DNA of 64,000 nt from Bugulina stolonifera (Eukaryota; Bryozoa; Gymnolaemata; Cheilostomatida; Bugulidae): the NCBI GenBank assembly GCA_935421135.1, contig OW285194.1, positions 11,307,376 through 11,371,375 on the forward strand, written 5' to 3'. Of this stretch, positions 1,728 through 56,906 are shown piece after piece. Under the pieces are notes generated by a model. That model saw only the letters and a program-made list of their open reading frames with translations, was not told the DNA's origin and did not search any database. Numbering within the stretch: the stretch's first letter is position 1; each line of letters opens with the position of its first letter. Position numbers and translations under genes: made by a program.

Positions 1728-3190
1728 TTAGTATGGTCCCAACCATCGCTTTTAAAAACTTTGAAATGTAGAAAATGCTTTGTCATTTGATCATGTATAC
1801 AGACTCAGCCGTAGGATTGTGCTTACTTCTATTTACACAGTATTAAATTACGTTCTCTTGGTCTAAAATAATCTCCAAAGCGAACATTTGCAAAGGGAAA
1901 TACGAAAAGACGCAATAGAACGAAGTATGTAGGCTTTTACGTTAACAGCCAATAGATATACAATAAATATACGCCACTTGATAGAAATAAGGGCTCTGGC
2001 AAATTGCTATTTTGTTAGACAAATATTTTTCAAAAATTAATGGAATTTATGTTGAGACTTTCTGTATATTTATAATTATCATGTTTGATACCTCATGAAA
2101 CAGTTAGTTGTTTCATTACCACTTGGATGTACATGTATATAATATATAATTTAACAACTTTAAAACGACTAATTTCGTAATGAATATATTAAAATATGGG
2201 AATTTGCCAGCTGTATGACTCAGAGTTGAGATGTTTTGGTTTGATGATAGGTCGCGTGTTGGCACATGCAGTTTTGACATTCTACATGTAGGCCTACATG
2301 TAAATTCTAAAGTAGGATTTGCAGTCAATTATTTGTAGCATAGGGTAATTCTTCTGAACAGATGCTAACATAGTAATGATGATTAATACTGGTTTCATTC
2401 GTTTACAACCATTTGGGACGTCTACTAACTTAGAAAATTATGTCTGTGCCTGACCATGTTCATACTTGGTATCCTATGACCTTAGGTCTTGGTATTTTAT
2501 GGCCTTGGGCAGGCGGTACTTTTCCGGTAATAAATCGAAGCCGCGTTATGGTTTGGTGGGCATGACCCATCTACATGTATAGTCATCCATTACTATCTGT
2601 ATGAATGAGTAGATCTTTCCATTAGCAATAATGGGAATTTCCATAATAACTAAACGCAATTAAAGACATGTAATTAGAGCCAGGCATTTACAGTTAGTTG
2701 TACCAAATCTAGTCAAGTATACATATATCACTTACTAGGGCATACAATGTACTGGTACATTTGCAGATTATGCTAGCAATACCAGTTGATTCAAGGAACA
2801 AGTTCAACAGACTGAACAACAGGTAAGACTGCTGATAGTGGAACATAGACATTGAGCTAGTGTGTGGCACATAGGTAAAGTGGGGGGGGGGGGTGTGGGG
2901 GGCAGGCTAATACTAGGTCACATGTTCACAGCTCATTCTTAAAACTCAAACTTTTCAACTACAGTATGACTTTATACATTTTGTAGACCTACATATTATA
3001 ATATGTCGGAACCTGGTCTAACTCACTTCATTCTTTGTCTAATACGTACTCATAGCCTATACATGTACATAACGTGTTGCTAAAGCATGTATGTGTAGAT
3101 CTATGAGATATTTCATGTTTGTATCGAGGATTTCCATTCCATTAGATAACCAAATAATAATAAAAACATTAATAAAAATGTTTCCCTTTT

Positions 3191-3503
3191 CGTGTACATG
3201 TTCGTGTACATGTTCGTGTACATGTTCGTGTACATGTTCGTGTACATGTTCGTGTACATGTTCGTGTACATGTTCGTGTACATGTTCGTGTACATGTTCG
3301 TGTACATGTTCGTGTACATGTTCGTGTACATGTTCGTGTACATGTTCGTGTACATGTTCGTGTACATGTTCGTGTACATGTTCGTGTACATGTTCGTGTA
3401 CATGTTCGTGTACATGTTCGTGTACATGTTCGTGTACATGTTCGTGTACATGTTCGTGTACATGTTCGTGTACATGTTCGTGTACATGTTCGTGTACATG
3501 TAT
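3191..3503. repeat. 12-bp minisatellite (CGTGTACATGTT)n, about 26 copies
   Basis: Near-perfect head-to-tail 12-bp units. Because the unit length is a multiple of three and contains no stop in most frames, it creates long false reading frames on both strands (HVHEHVHE, SCTCSCTC, MYTNMYTN). It contains the TACATGTA-like palindrome core seen in several other repeats of this window. Confidence 0.98.
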
Positions 3504-8713: not shown

Positions 8714-11700
8714 CTAAGATGAATTCATCGACATGATTTCAGCTACACCTAAAAAATAAAAGAAACCGGGTTACCAGAAAATTAATCCCCTAATTTTAAG
8801 TAAATTGTCTCTAGCAAACCTACATGTAGGTCCAAAAATATTTTAGACCACTATCGCCTGAGTAGAAAATATAATATGTCAGCTGTGGCCTACAGCAAAT
8901 GTAAAACATCCCAATTCGAGTCTAATCATGAAAGAATGAAATTAAAGGGAAATAGTAAATGCATTGTAATTGCCAGTTGGTGAACTAAGAGGTGAAATGA
9001 GGGAGATAAGATTGAGGTGGCTGGGACACGTGTTGAGAAAAGATGAAGAGTAGGTGGGAAAAAGAATAAGACAACTGGAGGTAGGAAAGCAAAAGAGAGG
9101 ACCCCCTAAAAGAAGATGGAAATACTGTTTGAAAGACGATATGGCACCAGCAGGACTGGTAGAGGAAGATGCACAAGACAGGGTTAAATGGAGAAAACTG
9201 ATCCACAATGGCGACCCCACCTGATGGGAAAAGCCAGAAGAAGAAGAAATATTAAATAATTGCCAGAATAGAATAAGTTGAGATATCAGAACTAGACACT
9301 TACTATCAAAGCTGATTTTCTCAGTAATCTTCTTAGTTTTCACCAGTTCTTCTTGATTAGCAATGTACACACTATCTCCATTATCCTGCCAACCGTACTT
9401 AGATATCCATGTCTTCAGGTCTTTATCTGGAGACAAATACCACAGTTAGACCTTACACATCTTAGACCTTACACATCTTAGACCTTACACATCTTAGACC
9501 TTACACATCTTAGACCTTACACATCTTAAACCTTACACATCTTAGACCTTACACATCTTAGACCTTACACATCTTAGACCTTACACATCTTAGACCTTAC
9601 ACAACTTAGACCTTACACATCTTAGACCTTACACATCTTAGACCTTACACATCTTAAACCTTACACATCTTAGACCTTACACGTCTTAGACCTTACACGT
9701 CTTAGACCTTACACGTCTTAGACCTTACACATCTTAGACCTTACACATCTTAGACCTTAGTAGTATAGTCAGTGCACTTCTATACAGACACGCACTCATT
9801 GACCCCTGTTTTCAACCAATCACAAGCCGGTATTTCCGATTTCAACCAATCACAGAAGAGCACAAAAATTTTGCACACGACCTTGCCAAGGTCACCCCAA
9901 AATCCCCCCTTCTGATTGGTCGAAAAAACATTTGCACACTTGACCCAAACCCGGTCACGACCCCTTCCCTCCCTCCTTCCCACCCTCCTCCCCTCCCCCA
10001 CCCCCCACTCCTCCCCCGCCCGCACCACCGCCGCCACCACCACCCTCACCACCGCCGCCACCACCACCACCGCCGCCATCACCGTCATCACCGCCACCCC
10101 TCCTCCACCGCCGCCGCCCACCCTCCCCCGCAACCTCCACTCACCCGAACGACCGATCGTTTGAGGCGGTCAAGCCGCGTCCGCCTACGTTGCGTGCGGC
10201 GCCGACCGTACACATGGAGGCGACGCCGGTGCCCCGTATCCACCGGGCCAAGCGACTAGGCAGCGGCCCGCCGCTTCTCCTGCGCCCTCACTCGAAAAGC
10301 TTGTGATCTAAACGAGCGAATTCCGCTGCACTTCGCTATAGCGATAAGAAGAAGTACTACAGAAGGCTTGGTTTATGATGTGCATTGCATCATTAATAAA
10401 GAAATGTGTAGTAAAGTATTGGCTATAAATATACTGATGGGAAGAAGGGTTGGTTCTATGATATACATTGTATTGACAATAAAGAAACGTGCGCGTGTGT
10501 TAAGTCAGCGTATATAATACATTAAATAAACTCTTCACAATGGTGACAATAGAATAGATGAAAGGTTGTGCGCGTGTCTTAAGCCAGCTTTATGTAGTAC
10601 ATTAGATAAACTTTTCACAATAGTAGCAATAGAATGAATAAAAGATTGTGTACACATGTTAAAACACAATTGAAAGAATAAAAGACACATATTATACATT
10701 AGATAAACTTTTCACAATAGTAGCAATAGAATAAATAAAAGGTTGTGTGTATGTGTTAAGCCAGCATTATGTAATATATTAAATAAACTTTTCACAATAG
10801 TAGCAATAGAACAAATAAAAGATTGAGTGCGTGTGTTAAGTCAGCATTATGTAATACATTAAATACACTTTTACAATACTAGCAATAGAATGAATAAATG
10901 TGTACACATGTATGTAAAGGAGTATTTGTCATAGCTATTATAGCAAGAAACAGCTGTGTGCATGTGTTAAGTCCGCACATATAATACATTAAATAAACTT
11001 TTTACAATAGTAGCAATAGAATGTATAAAAGGATGTGTATAAGTGTTAGAATACCATTATATAATATTTCACAATAGTAGCAATGAAATAAATAAAGATT
11101 GTGTACATATGTATGTAAAGGAGTATTTGTCATAGCTATTATAGCAAGAAACAGCTGTGTGCATGTGTTAAGTCAGCACATATAATACATTAAATAAACT
11201 TTTTACAATAGTAGCAATAGAATGTATAAAAGTATGTGTATAAGTGTTAGAATACCATTATATAATAATTTAGAAAATAATTTAAAAAAATCTTCACTGA
11301 TTTGCCATCACATAAAAGTAAATGCAGAGGGAATGAGACACTACAGAGAGAGTGGGAGAAAGAGAGTGGGAGAAAGAGAGTGGGAGAAAAAAAAAACCTA
11401 AAGAAAAGATGATTAGAGCTTTTCTTCACTGACTCGAAGGTAAGCTTCAGCCTGTGCTATTACCTCTCTGTGATACCCATTCTTCTTGAGATGAAAAATG
11501 GCAGAGCGGTAATACTCAACTGCTCCAGAGAAAAAAGATCGGGGGAGACTGCTTCGATCAACTAGTTCACTGACAGTCTCCTCTTCTATGGGGGTAATAG
11601 TGGTGGGGGTATTAAGATTGAGTTCAGAAGAAGAAGGAGACTGCAAGCTAAGTAGCTCTCTTTCAAAAGAAAGAGAGTGTGAAGCTAAAGAAAAGGAAGA

Positions 11701-14700
11701 AGTGGTAGTAGTAGAAGTAGTAGTAGTAGTAGTGGTAGTAGAAGTAGTAATAAAAATAGGTATTGAAAGACTAGTAATTGTATTATTAGATCTTTCAAGA
11801 GAAAAAGAGGGTAAATCTAAGAAAAAGAGTGGAGCAGGTGAAGAGGTGGGAGTAGAAGTAGGTATCGAAACAGTGGTAACTGTATCATCAGATCTTTCAG
11901 GAGAATGAGAGGGTGAATGTGAAGAAAAGAGTGGAGGAAAAGAAGCAGTAGAAGGAGTAGTAGTAATGTTAGTAGCAATAGTAGTAGTTGTAGGAGAAGA
12001 AGTAGAGGTGGTAGTGTCTCCATTAGTAAGAGAGTTACTGATGGGAGAAGCATCTGAATTAAAATGATGGTGAGAAGGGAGAGGAAATCGTGAAGAGCAC
12101 ACCCCAGACTTTAAAGAGAATGGAGTAGTAGACTTCCCCTTAAAGAAGGGAGGGTATACTACCCCACCAACAGTTGTTGGAGTGTATGCGGGAATGAGTA
12201 TTTTGGAAGGTGGAGAGTGACCAGTGACCCTTTGCAAAAAAGGATATGGTCTTTTTTAATGAGAAGATATCGGTTAGAAAGCGAGTATTGAATGAGATGT
12301 GGCGGTGACAGGGCTTTCCATCAATATGATGATTAGATGGAAAGTTGTAGTGTCTATTCATCCCCTCATCATCTACTGTTATGTGATAACAAAAACAGAT
12401 TTTAAGTGAGAAATGTTGCTGTATATGGGCACCTCGTCGGTGCCCAACATTTTTATTACATAAAAAGCAGGGGCCGTCCGATTCAAATGGCTTTGCTAGT
12501 GACATCTCCAGTCTTCTTTTTGCCTCATCACTAACAAAGACATAGAATCTTAGACCCCCCCCCTTACTTATTGGTTTTGTTCTGAGTCCTAAAAAAGAAA
12601 AAAAAAAACAAGAATAAGTGAGAGAGGACATATGACTTACTTGTAAATCAAAAAAGATTCTAGATAGACAAATAGATAGCAGATCATTCTTACCTATCTC
12701 TATCCCATCTACTCCCCCACATTCCTCAAATAAAGCAAACTCTTCTTCATCTAATTCTGTTTCTTTTTCATTCTATAATGTAAATATATGATTTTTGAGG
12801 AATTTGATGAAAAAACTAGCACTCTAAGTACTAAGCAAGTCTACTAAAGTCTGTCTATTTTCTTGCATAAAGAGAAATATACCATTAACATGAGAAAACC
12901 AGTTGTAATTTGTTTTATTTTTTTACATAAGAAAAAAAAGTGACTTATTGATAGAAATAATACATAAGAAAGAAAGTGCAATACTCATAATAAAAATATA
13001 ACTAATCTCTAACATCTTAGACATGGTAAGAGACTTATAGAATTAGAGAAAATCATACTATGGCTAATTAACATCTGGTTTTAAAAAGGAAGTAGTCTCT
13101 TTTGACATTCTAGACATGGAAAGAGGCTTATAGTATAAAAAAAGTACATTATCATACTATGTGTTACTAACATGTGCTTCTGAAGAAATGTCAGTAATCT
13201 CCTTTGACATCTTAGAAATAATGTGATGAGGTGTAGAAACCCAACACCATAGTGGATGGAAGTTGTAGTGCATGTGTGAACAAATAAGATAATAGACTAA
13301 CCATTTCTGGAGATGGGATTCTTTTCCTCGAAATTCTTTTGTCCTCTGTATCGTAAGTAATCATATATTTGGTGCCTTTTTTTGTTCTTTTTATTTTTCT
13401 TATATATTTCTTTCTTGCTTGCTTAGATGTAGAAGCCTGTAAGTATATGTAGAGTAATAAACATATACCAAAGCATAAGTCAAGTAAACGGAACTACTAA
13501 TGCAACATAGCTACTAAACAAAGAAAATAAGAATGAATAAAGATATATAGGAAACAAGAGCATAGTGGTAGTATACAAGTCAAGTATACAAAAATACTAA
13601 TCCCTATAGTTATTGAGCAAGAAAATAAGAATACTGATAACAACTACTTTTAGAATGAATAGAATAGGCAAGTAAAATAACAAGTAATAATATATACTAA
13701 ACCCTTAACTGTGTGGATAAAACCACCAACTCACCATAGTCACTGGGGAATAGAAACAAGAATAGGTAAGCAGAACATGTATTAGCAAGAATTAATTTTG
13801 AAGTGAATAATCAGTATAAGACAGAAAAAACCAAAAATACCACCCTTACTTTTTATGTGTTTTTTAACCAATCAAGTCTTTCTGATGGTAAGCTCCTCCC
13901 AAACAGAGAGATAAATTACTCTTGTGTTAGTGCAGATCTATTTATTAGAATTAATCAATTAGTCTTTTTAGCATCAAGTTCATCCCAAGTAGTGTAATAA
14001 ATCACTTTGGTGTAGACCTATTTATTAGAATTATTCAGTTAATCTTTTTAGCAACAAGTTCATCCCAAGTAGTGTAATAAATCACTTTAGTGCAGACCTA
14101 TTCATTAGAATTATCCAGTTAATCTTTTTAGCAGCAAGTCCACCCCAAGTATTGTGATAGACCACTTTAGTAGAACATAGTCTTGGATGTAGAGTATAGG
14201 CTACACTTGATAATATACTTCTTTGCTAGGATGTACTAGTATAGTCAGTACAAGTGATAATAAACTGTTTTGATACTTAATACCCTACTAGTGGTATAAC
14301 TACTCATATTGAAAATAAATCTCACCACTTATAAGGTTCCTAAACTATGGTCACACTAATTGTAGTATAGACAGAGCAGATCTCTACACACATGCTTTCA
14401 TGTTGAGAATCAAAACAGTTTAATATATAACCTTACAAAGTTTCTAGGCCCTGGTCATACCAAAGGAGAATTATCTCACTGCTAAAATAGAATTAGTCCC
14501 AATGTTAAATCAAATGAGTGAATTCCTATTAAAATACATATTAAAATAGCTAGGATGAATTAGTATAGCCAGTACAAGTGGAAATAAACTTGTATTGATA
14601 CTTATTACACTACTAGTGATATAACTACTCATATTGAAAATAAATCTCACCACTTATAAAGTTTCTAAGCTATGGTCACACTAATTGTAGTATAGACAGA

Positions 14701-17700
14701 GCAGATCTCTACACACATGCTTTCAGGTTGAGAATCAAAACAGTTTAATATATAAGTTTACAAAGTTTCTAGACCCTGGTCATACCAAAGGAGTATTATA
14801 TCACTACTGAAATAGAATTAGTCCCAATGTTAGCTCAAATGAGTAAATTCATATTAAAATACATATTAAAATTAGTTTACTCACCATATTAATTGTTGAG
14901 TGATGTTTATTCAGAGAAATTAGTAAATATCCAGAGTTGCAAGTCTTTACTAGGTGGATGAGTGGTAATGATAAAAATCCTCTCTCATGCTTGCTTTTAT
15001 GGAAGTCTCTGTCCAATCAGAAGTGATGTGCCTTTTTTAGTCTGATTTATTATATCCCGATGTGATTCGATGTATCCCGATGTAACCCGATGTGTTTCCG
15101 ATGTAACCCGATGTGTTTTCGACCTCCCCCAATGTGATTCGATGTGTTTTTGACCTCCCCCGATGTGATTCGATGTGTTTTCGACCTCCCCCGATGTGAT
15201 TCGATGTGACCCGATGTGTTTTCGACCTCCCCCGATGTGATTCGATGTGTCCCGATGTGTTTTCGACCTCCCCCGATGTGATTCGATGTGTCCCGATGTG
15301 ATTCGATGTCCCCCGATGTGTTTCCGAAGCTCCCCGATGTGTTTCGATGTGCCCCAATGTGTTTTCGACCTCTCCCGATGTGTTTTCGACCTCTCCCGAT
15401 GTGTTTCGATGTTCCCCTATGTGTTTTCAATCTATCCCGATGTGATTCGATGCACTCCTATAAACCAAGAGCTGATGAAGATAACAGTGGAAAGATGTAC
15501 AGAACAAAGTGAGTATGAGAATAAAGACTTATTTGAGGGGGTGTCTGAGCTCTTTCTCCAAAAAAGCTTACTTCTAGAGTGGCAGAAATTGGATCCTGTA
15601 ACCGATATTCGCAATAAGCTTAGCACACAGCTACTAGAAGAAATTCGTTCTATCTTTTGGGAGCAAGATGGAAAAAATGAAGAGTTGTAAGTTATACATA
15701 CTTCCAATTTTTTTTTCGTATTGTCTTTTATGATCAAAATAAAGTATGATAGACAAAACTGAAGTGGTTTAATGCAAATTTCTCATATAACTACCTCTCA
15801 ACTATGTGAAAAACAAATATTATGCTAAATGATGTAGTGAGGTTCTAGAAGCAGCCCGAGATAGAGATGAGAGAGCCGTTGCACTCGCGGTATTTGTTGC
15901 AAGGAGTCACAAACAACTGAATACAAAAAATGCGAATCGGCAGACGTTACTTCACCTAACTGTACAGTCTTATTGTTCGGATTCACTAATTCGCCTCATT
16001 ATCACAAGGGGAGCGGATGGAGCAATAGCCGATGCTTGGGGTTAGTGTTTTATAGCACCAATGTTTGCATGCATTGCTTGTGAAAAAATAAAGTGTTGCA
16101 AAACTCGTAACAATTCGATACTTATCTAGATTGCTAATGTTTATTTGGAAGATGACACCCCCCTTCACATTGTTGCACGTCTGGGTAGAGCTAAGGTTAT
16201 TCATGCTCTAACCACAAGTTTGACCAGAGCAGAAGTAAAGCATCCATACTTCAGAGTTCCTTACAAATCACTTCCCCAAGACAATGTACAGAGCTACAAT
16301 CATGATGGAAGGAGTGTAGTCCACCTCATTGTTGAAACAGCGCATAGCAGCAAGCATAGAGAGGCACTAAAGGTACTAAAAGAAAATACTCGGGCTGACT
16401 TAGATATGAGGGTAAGTGAATACATTACAGTGGAATAAAAGTAGAGTAGATCGAATTGATAAGTTAGATGGGGAGTTTAATTCAATTCCCTTGTTTGATA
16501 TTATAGCGAATGAGAGATGGATACGCCCATCTCACATTGCCATAGAGAATGAAGACTACGAATGTCTACATTCATGTCTAAGATTGGGAGCTGATTCTGA
16601 AGTTCGTAACTACAAAGGTGAAACCCCTCAACAACTAGCTCACCTCTACAAATCACCGGATATGGTAAGGGACCAACAACATAAAGAAGGATAGATTTCT
16701 TGCTTTGACCACCTTGAGTGATATTCGTCTGAGTATAAAACTAAAATCATCTTGTAGGTAAGACTGTGTCAAGAGTTTGGAGCTGGAGCGTATCAATTAG
16801 AGTATGCCGAGACCAAAGTCGTAAACGTTATAGCTCCTACAACTTCTGATGAAGATGAGTAATAAGTACCTAAACTCCTACTCCTACTAAACTCTATTGG
16901 CAGGCAAAATCTAACACTCGCACACAACCTTTTATTCCTTCATCCTTTATCGTCAATACAATGTATATCATAGAACCGATCCTTCCTCGCATTAATACCA
17001 CCATCGGACTAGCTTATCTTTTACAATCCCGCCCCGGTGTAACTCGGGATGGGCGGCGGGCCGCTGCCTAGCCGCTTGGCCCGGTGGATACGGGGCACCG
17101 GCGTCGCCTCCACGTGTACGGTCGGCGCCGCACGCAACGTAGGCGGACGCGGCTTGACCGCCTCAAACGATCGGTCGTTCGGGTGAGTGGGGGTTGCGGG
17201 GGAGGGTGGGCGGCGGCGGTGGAGGAGGGGTGGCGGTGATGGCGGCGGTGGTGGCGGTGGAGAAGGTGGTGCTGGCGGCGGTGGTGCGGGCGGGACGAGG
17301 GAGGAGTGGGGGGGGTGGGGAGGAGGGTGGGAAGGAGGGAGGGAAGGGGTCGTGACCGGGTTTGGGGTCAAGTGTGCAAATGTTTTTTCGACCAATCAGA
17401 AGGGGGGATTTTGGGGTGACCTTGGCAAGGTCGTGTGCAATTTTTGTGCTCTTCTGTGATTGGTTGAAATCGGAAATACCGGCTTGTGATTGGTTGAAAA
17501 CAGGGGTCAATGAGCGCGTGTCTGTATAGAAGTGCACTGACTATACTACTGACCTTACACATCTTAGACCTTACACATCTTAGACCTTACACATCTTAGA
17601 CCTTACACATCTTAGACCCTACACATCTTAGACCCTACACATCTTAGACCCTACACATCTTAGACCTTACACATCTTAGACCTTACACATCTTAGACCTT

Positions 17701-20700
17701 ACACATCTTAGACCTTACACATCTTAGACCTTACACATCTTAGACCTTACACATCTTAGACCTTACACATCTTAGACCTTACACATCTTAGACCTTACAC
17801 ATCTTAGACCTTACACATCTTAGACCTTACACATCTTAGACCTTACACATCTTAGACCTTACACATCTTAGACCTTACACATCTTAGACCTTACACATCT
17901 TAGACCTTACACATCTTAGACCTTACACATCTTAGACCTTACACATCTTAGACCTTACACATCGCAGCTACAAGCATGAAACAGCTTAGAAACAATGCTA
18001 ACCAACAGCTACAGACTAGCTGTACTTCAATAATTAAAAACATAGCATGTCCTACTTAAAATATGCCTTGTATTGTAGAGCTCTAGTTGTGCTTGAGTAA
18101 ATTAGCAGGAGTTGTCCACACTCTTAGTAATCATGAGAAGACAAATCCATTAACTACAGTGCAGCCATGCTCACATGACCTCTTGGTTTCTCAACCAGCT
18201 ACTAAAGAAACTGTACTGTGTTAGTGTACAGTGCAAGGCAGGCAGAATCAGCAGCCTAACATTACAGTTTAGCTATAAATAAAAAAAGTGTAATAGGCCT
18301 ATATATTATCCTACAGTATTAGTTCAATTAAAGGTACAATGATAGTAAAACAGTCTCTATCACATAAAAAAATTAGCTGAAAAAAAATTTACATACAATG
18401 GAAATTTTCTTTGAAAGAATTGGCTTTCATACTATTGAATATTATGTCTATTGAAATAGTAAATTGCTTACTTAATCAAATGACACAGGGCAAAGCTCAC
18501 CAGTAGAAATTAGACTATTGACTTGGCTAGGTATTGGTTCAGCACACACTGCACTGGTAAGTCCTTTTCATATTCATGTTGTGTGAGATATAATTGGCTA
18601 ACCATTATTATTCGTTGATTGTATTGATTATATATTATTATTATAATTCATCAAAGGCGCCCTGAGTGCTAGGGAATTTCCATGGATTATTCCATTGTAT
18701 ACATTTATTTGTTAAAATAATACCAAAAAAAAACAATAGCCTGTCTGCCAATCAACAACTCCAATCATATGATAATATTTGCATAATATAATATAAAGAC
18801 TGCAGAGTTAGAGGAGATCTTGAAAATCAAGTGTCAATTGTTGTGGTACATCTCACATCCCCCAATTGATATGTTGACTATAAGGGTAACACTTCAAACC
18901 TGGCCTGTTCATATTAGGCCATCCTCCCCAAGATTTGATAGCTTCCAAAATATTACTTGATAGAACGTTTTTAAAAATTGGATTTGAAAAAAAATTCCAA
19001 ATTTTCAATAAGTAAAATCTGACCCTGAAATCTTGCCTATGGGCCACCAGGACAATACATTTCAAATAGTACAGTGAGAGGCATAAGCTAAGTACATAAT
19101 ATTATGAAAATGGTCTAGCGAGATCAGTGGGGCACCAAATGGTTGCACAAAATTCAACTTAACTAGGATCACAAGCACAATGGGGGATTTATCTTGGAGT
19201 TCAATCTCTTCTACAAAACCTTCCAGAGTAAACAGGAATAATAATCAATCTGTGACATACTTGTGATTCTATTGCATACTCCGCTTTCTAGTGATTCTGC
19301 ATTTTAACTACAACATTTCAGAGATTAAATCTAGAGATTTTCCATATATAACCTGTGTAATTACTAGTTTGGCATATTGGTAACATCATATGAAACCTAC
19401 TAACTAACAAATCAGCTATATGCATAGCAAAGTGGCTAACTAGGTGTTTGTCATACAGTGTGGGTAGACCAGTAAACTGTAAACCAGTGGTCAGCCCTTT
19501 TGCAATGGCTTGTAGCTGGTTGAATATTGTAGTAGATTACCAAGTCTCTACTATGTACTGCTAGTTGACCTACGCAAGTAAAATAAAACACTGCTGCTGC
19601 CACCACTACCAGGGTAATGGTGCAGATGTGCCTGTAAAAGCTCAAAAGGGTACCTGGGAAAAATTTCGGATTAATTTAATCTAAGTAATGACTTACTCAC
19701 ATTTTGATAATAATACTATACTTTTAAACATAAACTTTAAGTTATGTTTGGTACCTGGACAATAAACACCTACCTGATATATTCCCAAGCTGTTCTGACA
19801 GAGAGTCTCTCTCAATGGTTTGGAAGGAGATTCCGACGACGTGGCAGACAACTAGGAAAAAGGAAAATACTTTAATATAAACTCCTACACTTGTGACCTG
19901 CTTGTGACCTTGTAGTCACAAGCAGAGTCACACAACTTGTACAACTATTATTTGTAAATGCTATTATTAATATTACTACTGTAACTACTGCCGCTGCAAC
20001 TACTGCCGCTGCTGCTGCCACTATTACTTCTACTTCTACTACCCTCCCAACTATTACAATGTACTAGTTAACCCTGCTGCTGCTAACACTACTACTACCA
20101 CCAGATCTGTGACATCTATTTCTCACTGAAGGGGCAAACAAACCTAAAGCAGGGAGCCAAAAGGCCACCTAGGTGTGGCCTGGGGCAGTGCCCTTGCAGC
20201 TGTTACTTCAACAGTGATTTTGTGCAAAATTAAAGCAAATAGGCCTATTGTTGAAAGTACAGAGTGTATGTTTAAAATTGATACAAAAAATTCATTGTGA
20301 CAGCCCAAACATTGAGGATGTCACCTTGCCTCTATTATTTGTAAATGGAGGCATAAAGGTGAAAACACGTCAAATTCGCTCAAAAACGCTCTCATGTGTT
20401 TGCACCTTTAATATTACTCCTACAGCGTTTGCAAGGAAAAATTTTAGGTCTAACACTGTGTCATTAGGTGGTTCAGGGTTGTCCCAGCAATATTATAATA
20501 ATACATATATGTGCATAACATGTGAGGTCTGTAAGTAGAACAAAAAACTATTATAATAAGACATATTTTTTATAAAAATATTATAATGATCCATGTGTAT
20601 TACACAATCACCCTTGACTATACAAAGAAATTACAGCATATTTTAACATAATACTCCCAATGGAACCTCACCAGCCAGACACAATCTCTTATACAATGTA

Positions 20701-38400: not shown

Positions 38401-41400
38401 TTGCAAGAAAGCTAAACTTTAGAATCATTTCATGACTTGTGTATTGGCACCATATTTTGTTACTGTCCGTTACTATCATTGCTGTATCCCTATAATAGAA
38501 TCTGCCTATTTATTAGGAATATATCTCGGCATCATGTCTCCATCCATTCTGTGTACATGAATATAATATGAAAACAGTAGATAAAAATTTTGTTTTCTAA
38601 GCAGATGGTTCCTGTCTGGACTTGGTGCGCAGAGATTCTGATAGCGCATAGCGCTACCTTTAACTGTCATCACTGCACTCCTGTCTCACTTAGAGCAGGA
38701 CTTTCTATAGTTGTATCTGCCCTTTACTGAATCGTTTTGGAAATGTCTGGTGCTATTCATTTAGCTATCTCTTTACATACCTCTGAAGACAAATCTTGTA
38801 CGACGACTGAGCTGTCTTGTGAGTTGAAGAGCTCAACCGCCATGACAGTATTGTGTGAAATGTACAGTCAACATGTTACCCTACGGCTACTCGGCAACGT
38901 TACTGCAGTACCGTTCCGTCTCTCATACCTCACACCAATACATTCATCTGACATAAATATTATAGATTATTGTACGATTATTATTGTTATTAACAGTTGA
39001 TGGTGCATCAGAAGACCCACCCACCATGCTTGCTCGCTGCAGGTAAATGCTACTACTTTGACTATTGTGGGTTTCAAAGTGAGAAGCTGTTTGAACTTGA
39101 AAAGCATCTAAAGAGCAATTACCAACTCCATCTGGAGGGTCTTACTGTCCGGGTACACGAGCTGGAGAACTCTTCTTCAAAGACCAGAGAGGCGGTGCGT
39201 CACTTTTCTATATACTGTGATATTTAGGAATTGGATTGTATTTATTTTTACTGGCTTCCCATGAATTGTAGTTTTGTAGAGGAGGACCAAATAATTGAGA
39301 TTGAATGTTTCTTAGCCTTGGTTCCAACCCCTCTGTAAGGACGGGTGGTGAATTTGTAATCAACTACAACTTTGACTGTGTATGTAGAAGATTTATAGAT
39401 ACATGTGGTATCACTGTGGTAATTGGTCATGAAATCTGCTCTCCTAATGGGCTATCAAACTCGGGTGTTGGCGCCCTCATACACATCTGAGCTCTATTTC
39501 TTGCCGTCCTTATAATGAATGTAATGTCGTCATATTCTTGTAGTACACCAATGATGTGAAGAAAGCTGTTAACACAAAAGTGAAGCCTTTGGAGGTAAGT
39601 ACGTGTGCACATTTACATTTGAATACTGTTGGTAGCTGGTTTTAGCCCCAACGTAAAGTTTAGTAATATTTATATGTTTAAAGCTGTTAGAACTATCAAC
39701 ACTAGTTTAATGTGAACACAGGCGTGAACATTCATTTAATAGTTGGAACTGTGTGTTGACATGCCGTGTGATGTGTTTTGGCAATCCTCTTGACAATTGT
39801 ATTTCTGTTCATAACTGTTAATGGGTAGAAGTTCATATCTCAAAACTATGGAGTCAATCTTGAGGTAAGCCACTATGCCGTAGGCTATATGCCTAATGTT
39901 TGAGTATGATGTAAAAGCCAATGTGTGAATTTGTTTATCGTTTGGTCTCTGCTACTGTTGACTATTATATAATGTATATGGCTTTTGTTTTCTATGTCTA
40001 CAGAAAGTAACAGCCGAGATTGCTATGAGAGTTAAGAAGCTCACCGACAAAGTGACTCACTCTGAGACAAGTGGAGATCACTTGGTGAACGCAATGAGAA
40101 CTGTATCACACAGTTCACAGCAAATAGAGGCAGTACAGAGCAAAGTGTCGGTGATAGAGAGACAGATTAAAGACTCTGGTCTCGGTGTGTTATCTATGCT
40201 CTTTGGTAACCTGGTTTTCAGACCTCTGCAATTGTAGATTTAGCGAATGAACGGAGAATACGGTGCGCAGGCAAACCATAGATGATATATGGAGGAGATA
40301 TTGGTTCCTTTTTCTATTTCTTCACTCTTACTACAAGATATCTTGTTTGTAAATCTTTGATGTCCTGAGGTGATGATAAATGTAATGACTTGCTACGTCA
40401 TAGTAATTGTGTGGCACCCCCCCCCCCCCCCGAACAACTGAGCACCTGTTGCATGATTCCTGGTCATCCTAGTAATCACATGGAATCCTTATACATGTAA
40501 TAGCAATCTGTGTCATATACTCACCCCACTTCCTGAGTATAAGGTCTACTGTTAGCCGTTATTTACTCCATTAACCTGAAGCTGGGTCTAGTTTATGCGA
40601 TGAGTCTTCTTTCCTTAGCTAACATCAGCTTAGTCAACTCTGGTCGCCCATGTGCCAAATTCAAGTGCTTTGGGATTTCCGAGTGGCACTCTGCTTTGGC
40701 CAATGATCACACTCGAGATGTGTAGGCCTATTGTAACTCCTTTCCATATCATGCCCCACACAGTGACCCATGTGTCTAGTTTATATTTTGCAGATCGTGT
40801 GACAGTGATAGAGTCTCACTCTCAGAACATACGACGGCATAACGACGCTCTCGCAGAGTTGGAGAAACGAATGAAGGTGCGTGTGTACATGTACTATAAT
40901 ATACACCAGTTGGTTCAGCATCTTAAGGTGTCTAAGTTAAGTTAAAAGGGCTCCCACTGGTATATTTTGAGTTAGGTACAGAAGCGGAGATAGTACATGT
41001 ATTCAAGCAACACATACTTTAACATGGATAAGCATAGTGAACGTGAACAATACATTGAGCATTCAGGGGTTGTCTTCTCTTTTCTCTTATTTCATTTAGT
41101 CCCCTCTATGATTTAGCACCCTATACACTATTAATTATTACAAATACATAATATAGACTACAAGTCTACAAGATAGACTACAAGTCAGTAGACTACAAGT
41201 CAGTTGACTACAAGTCAGTAGACTACACATCAGTAGACTACAAGTCAGTAGACTACACGTCAGTAGACTACAAGTCAGTGGACTACATGTCAGTAGACTA
41301 CAAGTCAGCAGACTACATCATGTCAGTAGACTACATCATGTCAGTTGACTACATCATGTCAGTTGACTACAAGTCAGTAGACTACACATCAGTAGACTAC

Positions 41401-44058
41401 AAGTCAGTAGACTACACGTCAGTAGACTACAAGTCAGTAGACTACATGTCAGTAGACTACAAGTCAGTAGACTACATCATGTCAGTAGACTGCATCATGT
41501 CAGTTGACTACATCATGTCAGTTGACTACAAGTCAGTAGATTACAAGTCAGTTGACTACAAGTCAGTAGATTACAAGTCAGTTGACTACAAGTCAGTAGA
41601 TTACAAGTTAGTAGACTACACGTCAGTAGACTACACGTCAGTAGACTAGAAGTCAGTAGACTAGAAGTCAGTAGACTACACGTCAGTAGACTAGAAGTCA
41701 GTAGACTACACGTCAGTAGACTACATCATACTTTTTGCTTACGAGTTTAATCTACACATGTAGATTAATCAATTGATTAATCTACTACATGTAGATTAAT
41801 CAATTGATTAATCTACATGTATAGTGTTGAAAGAAAGGAAATCAAAATAACTGTCTATCTCACAGAATGTGGAGTTGTGCTCCTATGATGGTGTTTTGGT
41901 ATGGAAAATAAATGACTACAAGAGAAGAAAGAGCGATGCTATCAGAGGCAGACAGATGTCAATATACAGTCATCCTTTCTACACTTCGAGATCGGGATAT
42001 AAGATGTGCTGCAGAGTAAGTATAGCCTTAGTTCTTCTCCTGCCGACATGCTCAGATCACAGTCTGTCTGGTCTCAGATAGTGTCCATGTTTGTCCATTA
42101 GTTTCTGTTTTGAAACTGCTTCTTCTGGTTTGAGGTCATTCTGTTTATTGTCTTTCTATCTTCAGATAAGTTAGGTAACACTGTTAATAAAGGTAAGTCA
42201 GCTCTCTTGTTTGTGGTTCAGTGTAGCAACATACAATGACATCTATAATAGACATATCATTATATACATGTATATATTGGTGAGAGCAACAAGACTTCTC
42301 CGGGAGAGCCTATAACAAGGACAGGTGTTTCACAGTTTCTATCATTTTGTAGGTTGCTACATTAAATCATTCTTATGGTATGATTGTATAGTATGGTATG
42401 ACTGGGTGTGTAATGTAAGTGTCAGTTTACATTGCTGTTCTTATTGGCCAATGTCAAAAGTTCTGTTTTGTTGTCATCAGGACATCGAGATTATACTTGC
42501 ATTTGCTTACCTTTCTATGCTTCTTAAAACCCCAAACCGATAATATTCTAATACTGTTCCCAAATGTTGGATAACCCTATGTCTGACTGAATACTACTTG
42601 GAATATTCCGGTGTCCCCCATGACAAAGTCAACTATATACAATATCTGCTCAAAATATCTCCTGAATACCTTAAATATGGTGAAAAAACTCTCTCAATGC
42701 TGAGAGACTGTGGCTATGAACAGATGTGTCATTAACAGCATTATAAATCTACCCAGACTTTGCTCCAGCTGGCCCCATGGATATAATAGTTTATAGTTAT
42801 AGCCATGGCATGAACTCTCATTACCTCTACAGGCTATTGAAACAACATGAACCTTCTTAACCGGGAGTTGCCCTCTCCATGTGAGGTTGCAATACTACTT
42901 GGAAAGCTATATTTACCTAGGAATAATAAAAACTTTTCTTCACTGCATATTATTATTATTTTGTACTCTTCTGGTTAGCTCCATGCAGTTACTGAGATGC
43001 CAAGACCTAGTTATATGATATTTTGGTATTTGCAGAAAACTCTTAGCCAATAGCTAGTGTTTATGACTGTTTCCTACGTCTATTCTGTAGGCGTACCTGA
43101 ATGGAGATGGACTGGGCAGGTCTAAGTGCCTCAGTCTATTCTTCGTGTTGATGAAAGGAGAGTACGATGAACTACTTCGGTTCCCTTTCAAACAGAGAGT
43201 GACCTTTAGTTTGCTGTGTCCTACCAACTCTTCCCTGAGCAAACACGAGACCTTCCTCGTAAGTTTATTCAATCGTACTTTTTTAGTATCCTCTAAGTAA
43301 GTATAGATGTTTTACTTGGGGTTTTTCTCCAACTGTTTTTATTGATAAAAGGGTACAATTCAGTGCAAAAATATTACATTGTGTGGGTGAAGTATTTTAT
43401 CAAAGTGAGTACTTTTATTCATCTTCTGGGTAATATCTAGTTTACCAATAGTAACAGGTGGTTACATGGGCAGCACACTGCTCTAAGGTGCTGTCCATGT
43501 TGTAGCTTTTGACCAGCGATAGTGACTGTAGCTAACCACAGTGTGTCTAGTTTCCCTGCTAGCTACGCAAACACTGCTTGATGAAGAGTACTGGCAGGAA
43601 CTAACTCTTGTAGGCCTATCTGTTGTCACTCCTTTACAACGTTATAAATCTAAATGCATGATCGGGCAACTCTGAAATACTTGGAAATTTTTGCATAATA
43701 TTACGATAACATAATATTATGGCTATGCAGTCTCACTACCTCTATGTTACTATATATGCATTGCTGTAAGTTGTAATTAACATTCACTTGGTGTACACAT
43801 ATGGTAGTTCTATTACTAAACACAATGCACCGGCTCACAATTAAGATTTGTTCAAATGTTTCAGTTAAACTATTCTCTTGCCTATTACAGCCTGACCCAG
43901 ACAGTTCATCATTCAGGAAGCCGCAGACGGAGATGAATATTGCCAGCGGATGTCCTCAATTTGCTCTCCATACTGACGTAGAATCGAGTAATTTTCTGGT
44001 GAATGATTGTATCTATGTAAGAGTACGGGTAGAACCTGGTGGTGATGTTATAGGATAA
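35454..44058 (+). CDS. TRAF-like adaptor 1: RING-like, TRAF zinc fingers, coiled coil, MATH (13 exons)
   Basis: Exons 35454-35506, 35707-35847, 36101-36338, 36805-36966, 37644-37718, 38997-39194, 39544-39594, 39829-39864, 40004-40184, 40794-40876, 41866-42015, 43091-43258 and 43891-44058 total 1,704 nt (567 aa) with matching phases. Residues 47-85 form a RING-like finger (CAIC, TSCGNRVCKKC, PCPLP) in which the usual CGH is CGN. TRAF-type zinc fingers follow (CNFCKQSFKRKDMEEH, CSKCGTKFEKRK), then a Lys/Glu-rich coiled coil (about 250-400) and a MATH/TRAF-C domain (407-567) with VLVWKIND, YLNGDG, FVLMKGEYD, PFKQRVTF and CIYVRVRV. TRAFs link cell-surface receptors to NF-kB and MAP-kinase signalling at the membrane-cytoplasm interface; this role is inferred from the family. 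It is the first of three tandem paralogues. Confidence 0.94.
40418..40432. repeat. Poly-C run
   Basis: About 15 consecutive C in intron 9 of TRAF-1. Similar G runs occur at about 2883-2893, 44545-44555 and 45124-45135. Confidence 0.9.
41155..41725. repeat. 15-bp minisatellite (GACTACAAGTCAGTA) with 18-bp variants, in TRAF-1 intron 10
   Basis: About 36 units with AAGT, ACGT, ATGT or ATCATGT in the centre, forming higher-order patterns. It stays open in one frame (DYKSVDYMSVDY), but lies inside an intron between the coiled-coil and MATH exons. Confidence 0.97.
41750..41822. repeat. Two tandem 31-bp palindromes
   Basis: Each unit combines TACATGTAGATTAATC with AATTGATTAATCTAC and is nearly self-complementary. 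The pair lies about 45 bp upstream of the first MATH exon of TRAF-1, directly after the minisatellite. Confidence 0.88.
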
Positions 44059-53103: not shown

Positions 53104-56100
53104 GTCATGCACCTCATTCAGGTACAATGTAACTTGTGGTTCATTCAACTTTTCTGTAATATACAGTACAATGGAGTATACTTCAACTACAGTGGAAATA
53201 CTCATTATTCTATCATAAACCAAGCCTATTACATTTTTACTTTTAGTCTTTTTGTGAATATTCATAATTTCCAAAAGCTTTTGAATTAACTTCACATTTC
53301 TACATACACATTCTATCTAGGCAATTATTTTGGTTAATTTCTTGGTGTGTGTGTATGTTTGTAATTCATAAATCATGGAGTGGATCTAGTAGTACTAGTT
53401 GTGCTAACATATCAAAGAGTTAATAAAGATGAATGTTTTATTTTTTTTCTAGTATGATAAGCATATAAGGACAAACATATCATGCATTAACCAAGCAGGA
53501 AAGTGCTTCTACTATGATAAATGCGGATTCTCAACAAACCAAATTTATGCGATGAGAAATCACATTGGCAGTGCAAGAGACATTCATCTATCTCCTATTG
53601 CTCAAAACTCTACAAGTGCACCAAAAATTGTAAATATTTACCTGTCCTTTAGTTTTAGTAAAATATAAGTCTATTACATAGAAATGTATTTAAAACAAAT
53701 AGGTCTATAAAATAGGCTACGTCTACTAGAATAATCCAAAAAGCTGCCATGTGTTTCCAGGATGTAAAGTTAAATCTGTCACCTGGTATTACTTGACACT
53801 TTAAACTATGCTAGTGCAAGATTTCAAAGTTTCTATAGGCAGCATAATTATAATCTACACTGCACTAACCAGTGCACAGGAACATATCCTTATTTAAAGC
53901 TCATTTTGCATTTAATTCCATCGTCCTTGTTTTTAGATGTTTGCTCTTCAAGATGGTGGATGCAGGCAACCATCGTCTCCTGGGCATCAAGGTAATTCTA
54001 CTTTTTAAAACTACTGTTATTTATTGATACTTTATTTATCTAGTGAATATAAGAGTATGTGTTTCAGTGTCAAATAGACTGTGTGCATGAAAAGAACTGT
54101 TAAATTTTAAAAGTTTACATTTGCATGACTTTAAATTGTTTTGGTTGAGAGAATTTGGTTGTGGGTTGTGTAAAAACTGACCAAGAAAAGAAGACTTTAA
54201 CTTCAATTTAGACCAAGGACAAAGGCTATAGATTTCAAAACTATTCAGTCCTGCACCTACATGTACATGTATGTACGGTATAGGCATTACCAAATTCACC
54301 CATAATTTCTGATTACAATATCATAGGTTCTGCCCGCCGAACTGAAGACAACAAAAATTTGATAGGCAGAGCCTAACTAATTATACAATAAAGCTAGTAC
54401 AATTAAATATATATTGTATGTGTGTAAATTTGCTGTAAAACAATCTGCAACTGACACCTCCTATCTAATGACACGGACAATTGAGTAGTTTTCTCTACTT
54501 AGTAGGAGTCTTTACCGTGATACAGTATCTAGGTTTCATTCATATACAGTCATCATTTCAAATTAGTCGCCTGGCTACTTGTTCCTCATGTCTGAGTTGT
54601 TAATGCAGATTAAGTTTTATATTTATATTTTTCCAGATAAGTTAAAAGCACTGCAGGGACACAAGAATACTTTTATCAAGTATGAAAACGAACTCAGAGA
54701 GCTGGAAATGAGAGCTAGAGTGAGATGATAAGATTTCTTTCTTTTTAGAATATTAGTAATGATGACGTAATATTTGTCACCCATGCATCCAAATGCAGGG
54801 ACTAATGAAATTTAAAGTAAAAATATCCATTAGAAGATTTTTGAGTAGGAGGGTGAACTAACTAAAACACTACTAAATATATGACAAGTTACATGACTAG
54901 CCTGTTAGTAGGCGTGATTACTTGTACTGGTAAACTTACTGTTTGATGGAAATATCAGAGCAGTTGGAGGCAGTAGTGATGTGATTAATTGGGTATACAG
55001 CCTTAGAGCCACGTCTGTGGCTGGTGTTGAGGTCAACCAATAGTTGTGGAAGAGAGAATGACTTCTCCTATACATCATATTGCATAAATTATATATTTTT
55101 GAACATATTAAACTAATAATATCAACACTTTACCATCCTCATACTTACAAATATTTATACATGTAAATGTTTATACATGTAAATGTTTAATTGTTTAGTT
55201 CATAAATGTACATGTTTTTTCTGTTTAAACTAATAGAATACGAGTAACGTCACATATGAAGGAAGGATGCTATGGAAGATCACTGGTTATAGCGATAAGA
55301 AAAGTACTGCTGCCAGGGATGACAACTCTAGGGCTATATATAGCCGAGTTTTTTACAGTTCACCCAAAGGCTATAAAATGCGTTGCCGGGTAAGTATCTG
55401 TTTCTAACTCATCAATCTATGCAATAATTGATAGTTTTCATGGAATGAATGATGATTGCAATAAAGTATAATTATTTTACTTTAAAATCCCTTATTTTGT
55501 TGGCATATCTGACACTACTACAGACTTTTTAAAAGGCTATTACCACAGATGCATAGAACATAATGATAGCATTTATTAATAGTAATAGTCTTAATATTTT
55601 TACCCAAAAGTTTGAGAGAATGGGTCTTGTACTTGTGAATTTTACCACAAGCATACCTTACATAAGATGCAAATAATGTAGGACATCAAACTGTATACAT
55701 GTAATTATGTACACTCCTACAGCGCACCTGTGTTTGTACAGTGTACCAGTGTTTGTACAGTGAGTGAACCCATAGAAACTTCAAATTAGTAAATAAGTTT
55801 ATTATCTTCTGAACATTGTACTCTGTAGGTATATTGTATGTACATGTAGGTATAATTATTGTATGCGCATGTAGGTATATTGTATGTACATGTAGGTATA
55901 TTGTATGTACATGTAGGTATATCGTATGTACATATAGGCATATTGCATGTACATGTAGGCATATTGTATGTACATGTAGGTATAATTATTGTATGTACAT
56001 GTAGGTATATTGTATGTACATGTAGGTATATTGTATGTACATGTAAGTATATTGTATGTACATGTAGGTATATTGTATGTACATGTATGTACATTGTATG

Positions 56101-56906
56101 TACATGTAGGTATATTGTATGTACATGTAGGTATATTGTATGTGCATGTAGGTATATTGTATGTACATGTAGGTATATTGTATGTACATGTAGGCATATT
56201 GTATGTATATGTAGGCATATTGTATGTACATGTAGGTATAATTATTGTATGTACATGTAAGTATATTGTATGTACATGTAGGTATATTGTATGTACATGT
56301 ATGTACATTGTATGTACATGTAGGTATATTGTATGTACATGTAGGTATATTGTATGTACATGTAGGTATATTTAAATGGTGATGGACCAGGGAAAGATCA
56401 GTTCCTCAGTGTCTACTTCATATTGATGAAAGGAGAGTTTGACGGCTACCTGGAGTTTCCCTTTCGTCAGAAGATAACATTTAGACTAATCTGCCCGTTT
56501 GACGAGATGAGGAGTAAAAAAGAAACTTTGCAAGTGAACATTACGCATATATAAAACAGCAAACAATCTATTTGCAAATAAAAGAAAAGTAGCGTGACCT
56601 ATTTATGAGTCTGGTACAGATGCCAAGCACTTAGATAACCTTAGTTGCTCTCTCTACTGAGGAGAAAATTAACTGTGTGAAGCCAGAAAGCTATGCACTA
56701 TACATGTACTACTACTATAGTAAAATATAGTTTTACCGAATGTGATATGTTTTAATTCTTAGCTATCAGCGAGCGATAAGGCAGCAAGACGACCTGTCAC
56801 TGTAGAGAATCTGGCAGCAGGTATTCCTCTCTTTGCCTCCCATAAAGAGATAGAGGAAAGATTTCTAGCTAATGACAGCATATTTCTAGACATCAGAGTC
56901 GAGTAA
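48453..56906 (+). CDS. TRAF-like adaptor 2: RING-like, zinc fingers, coiled coil, MATH (11 exons)
   Basis: Exons 48453-48538, 48809-48931, 50737-50974, 52032-52196, 52776-52847, 53453-53629, 53937-53991, 54637-54719, 55237-55389, 56366-56533 and 56763-56906 total 1,464 nt (487 aa). The RING-like finger (CELC, TTICGARVCLDC) has Ala where the CGH histidine should be. Zinc fingers follow (CEICHRMIKRQDLQDH, CSSCNQTLRN, CFYYDKCGFSTNQ), then a coiled coil shorter than in TRAF-1, then MATH from residue 334 (MLWKITGYS, VYLNGDGPG, FILMKGEFD, SIFLDIRVE). Exon lengths 238 and 168 are identical to TRAF-1, showing recent common ancestry. Exon 1 is the least certain: it encodes an unrelated Ser/Cys-rich start (MSCQGSYISCP) next to a MITE. 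The acceptors of exons 2 and 10 are the ends of tandem repeats. Confidence 0.92.
48668..48806. repeat. 46-bp tandem repeat forming the acceptor of TRAF-2 exon 2
   Basis: Three units of TTTTCTACCTGCTAGAG.. GAAAGCTAGCTAGTATA.., the third shortened. After the last unit the recurring GTGTTTTCTACC is changed to GTGTTTTAG|GACC, which is the 3' splice site of exon 2. Confidence 0.9.
49265..49317. repeat. Perfect hairpin with 26-bp arms and a 1-nt spacer
   Basis: 49265-49290 and 49292-49317 are exact reverse complements around a single T, with TACATG..CATGTA at the centre. It lies in intron 2 of TRAF-2. Confidence 0.95.
50438..50670 (+). mobile_element. tRNA-derived SINE, family 1, plus-strand copy
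   Basis: A tRNA-like core has an A-box-like TAGTGTAATGGTAGAGTG and a B box GGTTCGAATC, followed by TTTAGTAAATCACTAATTTC and a tail with GTGGATAGCTTTACAATACT. The same order recurs in reverse orientation at 59475-59690. The cloverleaf does not fold well (weak anticodon stem), so it is a SINE head, not a functional tRNA. Confidence 0.72.
51025..51385 (+). mobile_element. tRNA-derived SINE, family 2
   Basis: The head GCTGCCGTGGCCGAGTGGTT resembles a Ser/Leu-type tRNA (A box TGGCCGAGTGG); a B box (GGGTCGAATCCC) lies about 36 bp downstream. A body shared with 7500-7722 follows (GGCCAAAGGGGCTATTGACC, CATCCCTAG, GACTCTGTGA, GTCTGAAATTTAGG). It lies in intron 3 of TRAF-2. No tRNA fold with matching acceptor ends is present. 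Confidence 0.72.
53024..53103. repeat. (TCTG)20 microsatellite
   Basis: About 20 perfect TCTG units in intron 5 of TRAF-2. Confidence 0.98.
55835..56370. repeat. 21-bp minisatellite whose last unit is the TRAF-2 exon 10 acceptor
   Basis: About 25 units of ACATGTAGGTATATTGTATG plus one base, with a few 24-bp variants (TATAATTATTG). The last unit runs into exon 10 at TACATGTAG|GTATATTTAAA, so nearly every unit contains a copy of the splice acceptor and the first codons. Confidence 0.96.
56577..56582 (+). terminator. Possible intronic polyadenylation signal in TRAF-2
   Basis: AATAAA about 23 bases after an in-frame TAA (56552-56554) that would end exon 10 if intron 10 were retained. Use of it would give a MATH domain lacking its last 48 residues. 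Confidence 0.35.

Follow-up and report, generated by a model that had tools for sequence, protein, structure and literature searches.

IkB-carrying elements that seem to hitch-hike on a Maverick without recognisable PolB in the bryozoan Bugulina stolonifera

Vertebrate Mavericks/Polintons are 15-20 kb long, have (AGT)2//(ACT)2 ends flanked by 6-bp duplications and, in the parts of the published accounts cited here, carry the integrase, minor capsid, PW, major capsid and protease genes in that order (PMC8097293, PMC4028283). Tlr elements and the pPolB-less polinton-like viruses are described in excerpts of two other accounts as having a capsid module, with or without an rve integrase, together with other replication proteins (PMC4028283, PMC11071308). 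Adintoviruses and other meldviruses are animal-associated and have adenovirus-like virion genes and a chromodomain integrase; adintoviruses are defined by PolB, some related genomes have no recognisable PolB, and the portions of that source on which we draw describe no same-ended satellite for them (PMC11071296). The vankyrins of polydnaviruses are multi-copy IkB homologues in a virus-like system that lack the sequences for regulated degradation (PMC3757122). Virophages and other satellites (PMC11464507, PMC11172284) rely on the machinery of another element. Our search of one open-access library found no description of a non-autonomous polinton, and the word bryozoan was absent among the related matches listed.

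Here, we analyzed a stretch of 64,000 nucleotides from B. stolonifera (the window). It contains an element of 7,792 bp at positions 9759-17550, with the tips AGTAGTATAGTC...GACTATACTACT and GACCTT at each flank, which belongs to a family of two classes, A (the window element) and B. The ends and repeats of the window element are as follows.

9753..9758, no strand: target site duplication GACCTT, left copy (sequence reading)
9759..10274, plus strand: left terminal inverted repeat, tip AGTAGT (inverted-repeat comparison, genome-wide tip matches)
10489..11267, no strand: 80-bp and 201-bp tandem repeats adjoining the left inverted repeat (repeat analysis)
14361..14391, plus strand: internal tip-like sequence (7/31 mismatches)
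14686..14716, plus strand: second internal tip-like sequence (7/31 mismatches)
15056..15461, no strand: tandem array built on the core CCCGATG, as are arrays in the class B elements counted
17053..17550, minus strand: right terminal inverted repeat, tip ACTACT (inverted-repeat comparison)
17551..17556, no strand: target site duplication GACCTT, right copy (sequence reading)

An earlier note, made from the letters of the window, had proposed a mobile element with long AG...CT-tipped inverted repeats, nearly identical ends and a GACCTT duplication, and the assembly bore this out. The two inverted repeats are 99% complementary across the outer 112 bp and 92.7% overall across 522 alignment columns. 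When the genome was searched with the 31-bp tip, 552 + 555 matches with at most three mismatches were found (0 + 0 for the reversed control), and the window element accordingly belongs to a family of roughly 550 with common ends. It should be noted that the insertion is surrounded by a 16-bp minisatellite, and the GACCTT duplication there, taken alone, is therefore weak evidence. Perfect 6-bp duplications flanked all 24 elements that were read at both ends, the window element included, these having been chosen for tips with no more than one mismatch; the duplication extended to 7 bp in none of the 21 elements tested for extension. The AGTAGT/ACTACT tips are the Maverick end motif, (AGT)2//(ACT)2, given in the cited part of a published account (PMC8097293). 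The window had no match in Rfam.

The two classes draw on one pool of ends. Across the outer 200 bp, the difference between A and B elements was 1.80%, compared with 1.78% among B elements (eight elements of each class), and the nine class B elements read all had ends and a 6-bp duplication of the window type. Class A has about 150 copies, its two cargo genes being nearly equal in count (151 and 147), and 198 copies of the class B integrase are present in the genome. The payload of class A consists of an intron-bearing relative of IkB/Cactus and an orphan Cys/His-rich gene, with none of the core genes that vertebrate Mavericks carry. That no core gene could be seen, as the earlier note had remarked, was confirmed by tblastn, in which 12 queries gave no match (E <= 0.01) in three of three class A elements, the window element included; the positive control covered nine of these queries, from class B, which recovered themselves in a class B element, the other three being Polinton queries. 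In Pfam, six frames scanned in the window gave sub-threshold similarity only, to ankyrin and, once, to a DUF. The further proposal that cargo had replaced the core genes is a guess, because no core-gene remnant was seen in class A.

Same-ended copies of class B encode an integrase of the Polinton type, an ATPase for packaging and a capsid protein of the double-jelly-roll kind, which supports the proposal that the window element is a non-autonomous Polinton/Maverick derivative. The autonomous partner envisaged with it was thus found in part: these three genes are there, and a recognisable PolB is not. The integrase has rve (2e-11) and chromo (1.2e-6) domains, each above the Pfam cut-off, and shares 26.5% identity over 324 aligned positions (pairwise E 1e-17) with the integrase of a PolB-bearing Polinton in the same genome. 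The ATPase, of the FtsK/A32 type, scored 28.2 bits for Pox_A32 (cut-off 22.8). The capsid model (pLDDT 82.1) matched the double-jelly-roll capsids of PBCV-1, SGIV, Sputnik and mavirus with E values of 1e-14 to 1e-17; the 461-aa capsid frame was intact in four of the nine class B copies fetched, and many class B copies are damaged. The penton candidate, with no Pfam match, is proposed from its position between integrase and capsid, and the protease candidate, also with none, from position and motif order, together with a single weak sequence match (E 0.31) in PDB, the cysteine protease of a virus. Read in this way, the class B genes would follow the order of vertebrate Mavericks. Class B ORF1 gave nothing above a cut-off, the capsid alignment and integrase had no relative in IMG/VR, the ATPase had none among phage records, and in PHROGs the integrase gave only transposase-type matches and one family of unknown function.

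No PolB was found among the ten frames scanned in a class B element (L055), nor did the class B frames that were profile-scanned contain a recognisable polymerase or helicase. A PolB-bearing copy with ends of the window type was also sought: none of 11 PF03175 matches fell inside a tip pair among the 100 tips listed out of 1,107. A 9.9-kb piece around one such match (L061), the true ends of which were not within view, proved to be a Polinton that encodes PolB as well as an integrase of its own and has no tip of the window type (best match 12-13/31 mismatches). Class B thus appears to be a PolB-less Maverick of about 9.6 kb, shorter than vertebrate Mavericks, and not a complete autonomous Polinton. 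It resembles Tlr elements and pPolB-less polinton-like viruses in its capsid module and integrase, whereas their other replication proteins have no recognised counterpart in it; it also shares the animal association, virion genes and chromodomain integrase of adintoviruses and other meldviruses, but not the PolB by which adintoviruses are defined.

The earlier note had read two spliced cargo genes in the window element. For the first, homology and the intron borders of aligned copies establish this reading.

15475..15686, plus strand: IkB exon 1 as left in the window copy (5' part with MESGYGSS missing; boundaries read from sequence)
15838..16040, plus strand: IkB exon 2, ankyrin repeats (homology, copy alignment)
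16152..16411, plus strand: IkB exon 3, ankyrin repeats (homology, copy alignment)
16507..16664, plus strand: IkB exon 4 (window frame interrupted relative to other copies; open-frame copies exist)
16758..16862, plus strand: IkB exon 5 with stop codon (copy alignment)

The element IkB matched Cact of Bugula neritina (66% over 93% of the query), an NF-kappa-B inhibitor of Watersipora (54%) and four further sequences without a name, and among 130 ankyrin-type PDB sequences it matched IkB-beta (E 6e-8). All four introns are GT..AG in seven of seven aligned copies, and L057 and L058 are identical across the exons. The host genome contains Rel-homology exons, and the element protein may restrain host NF-kB. 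One first-exon candidate for a host IkB was found (C5:15180324-15180725); for exon 3, none distinct from the element type was present among the 104 of 894 candidates that were scored (best 74%), and the other exons of the host gene were therefore not located. The N-terminal degron motif of IkB/Cactus is DSGxxS. A degron-like ESGYGSS occurs in seven of eight element copies and is missing from the window copy. The element IkB is similar to the vankyrins as a multi-copy IkB homologue in a virus-like system and, unlike them, keeps the degron-like motif in most copies, which does not point to a constitutive inhibitor.

For the second gene, the splice model is a reading of the sequence, to which selection on part of the last exon lends support.

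13302..13436, minus strand: gene 2 exon a, proposed; 5'-ward exon not found (open frame, splice signals, third-position bias)
12694..12772, minus strand: gene 2 exon b, proposed (open frame, splice signals)
11413..12588, minus strand: gene 2 exon c, a conserved part rich in Cys/His followed by a tail rich in Ser/Thr/Pro (copy comparison)

The frame of exon c in the window copy is shifted relative to L057. No homologue was found among 8,000 candidates scored and no match in PDB, and the structure model was unusable (pLDDT 32.4).

On the basis of these results, we consider it probable that class A is a cargo-bearing satellite of a Maverick that lacks PolB. Class A would retain the ends recognised by the Maverick integrase together with its two-gene payload; class B, with its integrase and capsid/packaging module, most likely integrates class A DNA in trans, in line with the mobilisation that the earlier note had envisaged, and perhaps packages it. 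The IkB gene, introns included, was most likely captured from a bryozoan host, and its product probably binds host Rel proteins and so dampens defence of the NF-kB type during periods of element activity. As a point against this reading, class B has no recognised polymerase or helicase; DNA synthesis for both classes might come from PolB-bearing Polintons or another source. Class A seems to be a hitch-hiker on class B, and its presumed reliance on the machinery of another element recalls virophages and other satellites. Virophages carry their own capsid genes, whereas class A has none. If true, a DNA transposon satellite has spread a host-type immune regulator together with its introns, and a PolB-less Maverick has grown to about 200 copies in a common marine animal. 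The finding bears on the open question of whether Mavericks are live viruses, as an immune-brake satellite with signs of constraint across copies answers the need of a transmissible element more than that of an intragenomic transposon. A possible, though rather unlikely, extension is a multipartite endogenous Maverick, in which a virion/integrase segment and a separate capsid-less segment, identical in its ends and bearing an immune-suppressing IkB, would be selected since particles form and pass between cells, a third element providing replication.

Class A could also be an ordinary non-autonomous derivative that lost its core, gained host DNA by chance and moves passively with functionless freight. 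The broken IkB of the window copy would fit this, as would the lack of an open frame in two of seven aligned copies, the tail of gene 2, which shows no constraint between copies and looks neutral, and the repeat-only derivatives L041, L046 and L052, which have the same tips and the same kind of duplications. However, the 334-aa IkB frame is open in the other five copies, the two cargo genes are retained in near-equal numbers, and changes between copies show a synonymous excess in both. With the window left out, 20 of 38 IkB changes were synonymous (neutral mean 10.3, P 0.0008), and with it included 29 of 79 (21.4, P 0.04; a weak signal); for the conserved stretch of gene 2 the figures were 27 of 44 (11.7, P < 0.0005), all these P values being optimistic, as the copies are related to each other. 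We therefore regard functionless freight as doubtful.

Considerably less probable is that A and B together make up a single multipartite endogenous virus, in which the B segment supplies virions and integrase and the A segment host manipulation, so that spread needs both. The shared pool of ends, the comparable copy numbers, the complementary gene sets and the constraint on both cargo genes agree with such an arrangement, but a replicase was found in neither class, and there is no sign that B needs A. Another superfamily with 6-bp duplications, which the earlier note had offered as an alternative since IS3EU and Dada use 6-bp sites, or a segmental duplication is very improbable, given the Maverick end motif, the Maverick gene order in class B, six window frames without a transposase match in Pfam, and 6-bp duplications that differ among copies on several chromosomes, unlike the expectation for segmental duplication. 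Finally, the 14.7-kb L059/L060, considered as a possible autonomous element, turned out to be class A with expanded repeats, in which 4.1 kb separates IkB exons 3 and 4.

The element in the window belongs to a class of elements (class A, with an IkB/Cactus relative as gene 1 and an orphan Cys/His-rich gene 2) that is probably a gene-carrying satellite of a Maverick with no recognisable PolB (class B), from which, we infer, integration is supplied in trans. The features of the element and its insertion site are as follows:

Window 9759-17550: the element, 7,792 bp, with tips AGTAGT...ACTACT
Window 9446-9759 and 17551-17963: 16-bp minisatellite (TTAGACCTTACACATC), interrupted by the element
Window 15475-16862, plus strand: gene 1, an IkB by sequence, five exons
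Minus strand: gene 2, with a Cys/His-rich conserved stretch (110 codons) and a Ser/Thr/Pro-rich tail

The inverted repeats of the element were 92.7% identical over 522 alignment columns, and their outer 112 bp were 99% identical. It should be noted that GACCTT, duplicated at the flanks, is a portion of the 16-bp minisatellite unit, and this duplication alone is weak evidence because the element was inserted into that minisatellite. Two internal tip-like sequences (7 mismatches in 31) were found 325 bp apart at window 14361 and 14686, within a duplicated stretch. Other minisatellites of the window (units of 12, 15, 21 and 23 bp) occupy 3189-3501, 41174-41725, 55824-56372 and 62942-63880.

Genome-wide, the 31-bp tip gave 552 + 555 matches with at most 3 mismatches (reversed control, 0 + 0), and thus about 550 elements are present. 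Further insertions with 6-bp duplications, which the earlier note had proposed as a check, were indeed found: the duplication was perfect in all 24 elements with both ends read, which had been selected by tips with 0 or 1 mismatch. The 21 elements fetched or fully read had a mean size of ∼8.5 kb; at that size, the whole set would make up ∼2% of the 235-Mb genome. The main text of the Bugulina stolonifera genome paper (PMC10213821) contains no words beginning with 'transpos' or 'repeat'. Nine of these 21 elements were class A, nine were class B and three (L041, L046 and L052; 3.0-6.9 kb) were mostly repeats; these short or repeat-filled loci kept the tips and 6-bp duplications and had no class A or class B genes. 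Pattern matches with at most 3 mismatches (every reversed control, 0) numbered 151 (79 + 72) for the class A IkB exon, 147 (73 + 74) for gene 2 and 198 (114 + 84) for the class B integrase. One class A element (L059/L060) reached 14.7 kb, with expanded repeats and 4.1 kb between IkB exons 3 and 4.

Class B is a Maverick with no recognisable polymerase of its own and has the following gene order:

First half: ORF1 (function unassigned), small membrane-protein candidate, ATPase, small basic protein, coiled-coil protein
Second half: integrase, penton candidate, pVI-like protein, capsid protein, protease candidate

The names of the small proteins reflect likenesses that we presume. The protease candidate was assigned by its position, its motif order and a weak match (E 0.31). 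The integrase, which has rve and chromo domains, matched that of a PolB-bearing Polinton of the same genome at 26.5% over 324 aligned positions. The capsid model (pLDDT 82.1, pTM 0.82) had structural matches to the PBCV-1, SGIV, Sputnik and mavirus capsids. By E-value, the top match in the viral library was a Cotesia bracovirus-listed protein (25% identity), yet its TM-score was 0.35; adomavirus LO7 came next, then giant-virus, adintovirus and MELD proteins. Unnamed proteins of public assemblies (P0002-P0023) were also related to the capsid (22-51% identity). The full 461-aa capsid frame was present in the 92 best of 272 candidates, a best-picked set, and among nine fetched class B elements it was intact in four, shortened or split in four and absent in one. 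Vertebrate Mavericks as published (PMC8097293) agree with class B in the integrase-to-protease order, in their (AGT)2//(ACT)2 ends and in having a 6-bp duplication.

The same-ended partner sought by the earlier note was found as far as the integrase is concerned, whereas no PolB, nor any other polymerase or helicase, was recognised among the class B frames scanned (Pfam). PolB-bearing Polinton-type elements share the genome with both classes: PF03175 matched at 11 places, with PolB frames of ∼1,200-1,400 aa, and the 9.9-kb locus around one match (L061, C1:12824500-12834400) is such an element, in which the studied tips were not seen.

The absence of core genes, which the earlier note described for the element in the window, was borne out in three class A elements, in which 12 protein queries found no match by tblastn: nine class B proteins, all self-matched in a class B control, and three proteins of a PolB-bearing Polinton, run without a positive control. 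Among the matches listed between them, the window element and class B had the ends and a CCCGATG-core tandem array in common. Over the outer 200 bp of eight class A and eight class B elements, the mean difference was 0.85% within an element, 1.55% within class A, 1.78% within class B and 1.80% between classes. Since the last value is close to those within classes, the ends form one pool rather than separate lineages, as expected from one machinery acting on both or from exchange of ends. In a non-coding stretch from the interior of class A, seven copies differed from the window copy by 2.4-8.4%.

We propose that the equal ends and duplications arose because class A DNA would be inserted by the integrase of class B in the same way as class B DNA itself. 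Both classes could be packaged by the capsid protein, ATPase and protease candidate that class B encodes, and DNA synthesis would have to come from outside them. The element IkB may restrain host Rel proteins while the elements are active, which would benefit helper and satellite alike. A multipartite endogenous Maverick, in which a virion/integrase segment and a capsid-less IkB segment would travel between cells in particles and be replicated by a third element, appears unlikely, and damage in many class B copies makes us hold both this and the satellite reading less firmly.

Constraint on nine of the ten class B genes (all but the protease candidate) was assessed at nine loci against the reference locus L044. 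Synonymous changes were in excess in the capsid (40 of 84; neutral mean 22.8; P < 0.0005), integrase (22 of 47; 12.6; P 0.005), ATPase part (16 of 34; 8.9; P 0.0075), small basic protein (13 of 24; 7.1; P 0.005) and penton candidate (17 of 36; 9.6; P 0.007). ORF1 (P 0.085), the membrane-protein candidate (0.086), the coiled coil (0.43) and the pVI-like protein (0.35) showed no clear excess at these loci. ORF1 had frame-shifting indels in six of the seven loci covering it, and open frames of 450-459 aa were retained in L048, L054 and L055.

In class A, the Cys/His-rich stretch of gene 2 had 27 synonymous changes of 44 (mean 11.7; P < 0.0005), and its tail looks neutral (13 of 62; mean 18.1). 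No relatives of gene 2 were found among 8,000 candidates scored or in PDB. Gene 1 is, judging from its sequence, an IkB: two of six protein matches were named, Bugula neritina Cact (66%) and Watersipora subatra NF-kappa-B inhibitor (54%). In the alignment of seven copies, from which L060 was excluded for its large insertion, all four introns had GT..AG in every copy, and the 334-aa frame was open in five, the window and L058 being the exceptions. When the window copy was left out, synonymous changes made up 20 of 38 (neutral mean 10.3; P 0.0008); with it, 29 of 79 (21.4; P 0.04), its 5' end being poorly aligned, and both P values are optimistic because the copies are related. The IkB degron has the motif DSGxxS, which is resembled by an N-terminal MESGYGSS in seven of eight copies, the window copy lacking it.

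Each of the following is already known: Mavericks, polinton-like viruses that lack pPolB and, in the form of vankyrins (PMC3757122), viral mimics of IkB. No description of a Maverick satellite carrying its own constrained genes was found in the open-access literature searched (one collection).

The host seems to retain its own IkB gene: one locus on scaffold C5 aligns with the Bugula protein over residues 3-137 (44%), including N-terminal residues missing from the element copies. The remaining exons were not recognised among 104 of 894 candidates scored. Rel-homology exons of the host genome were located on scaffolds C8 and C1.
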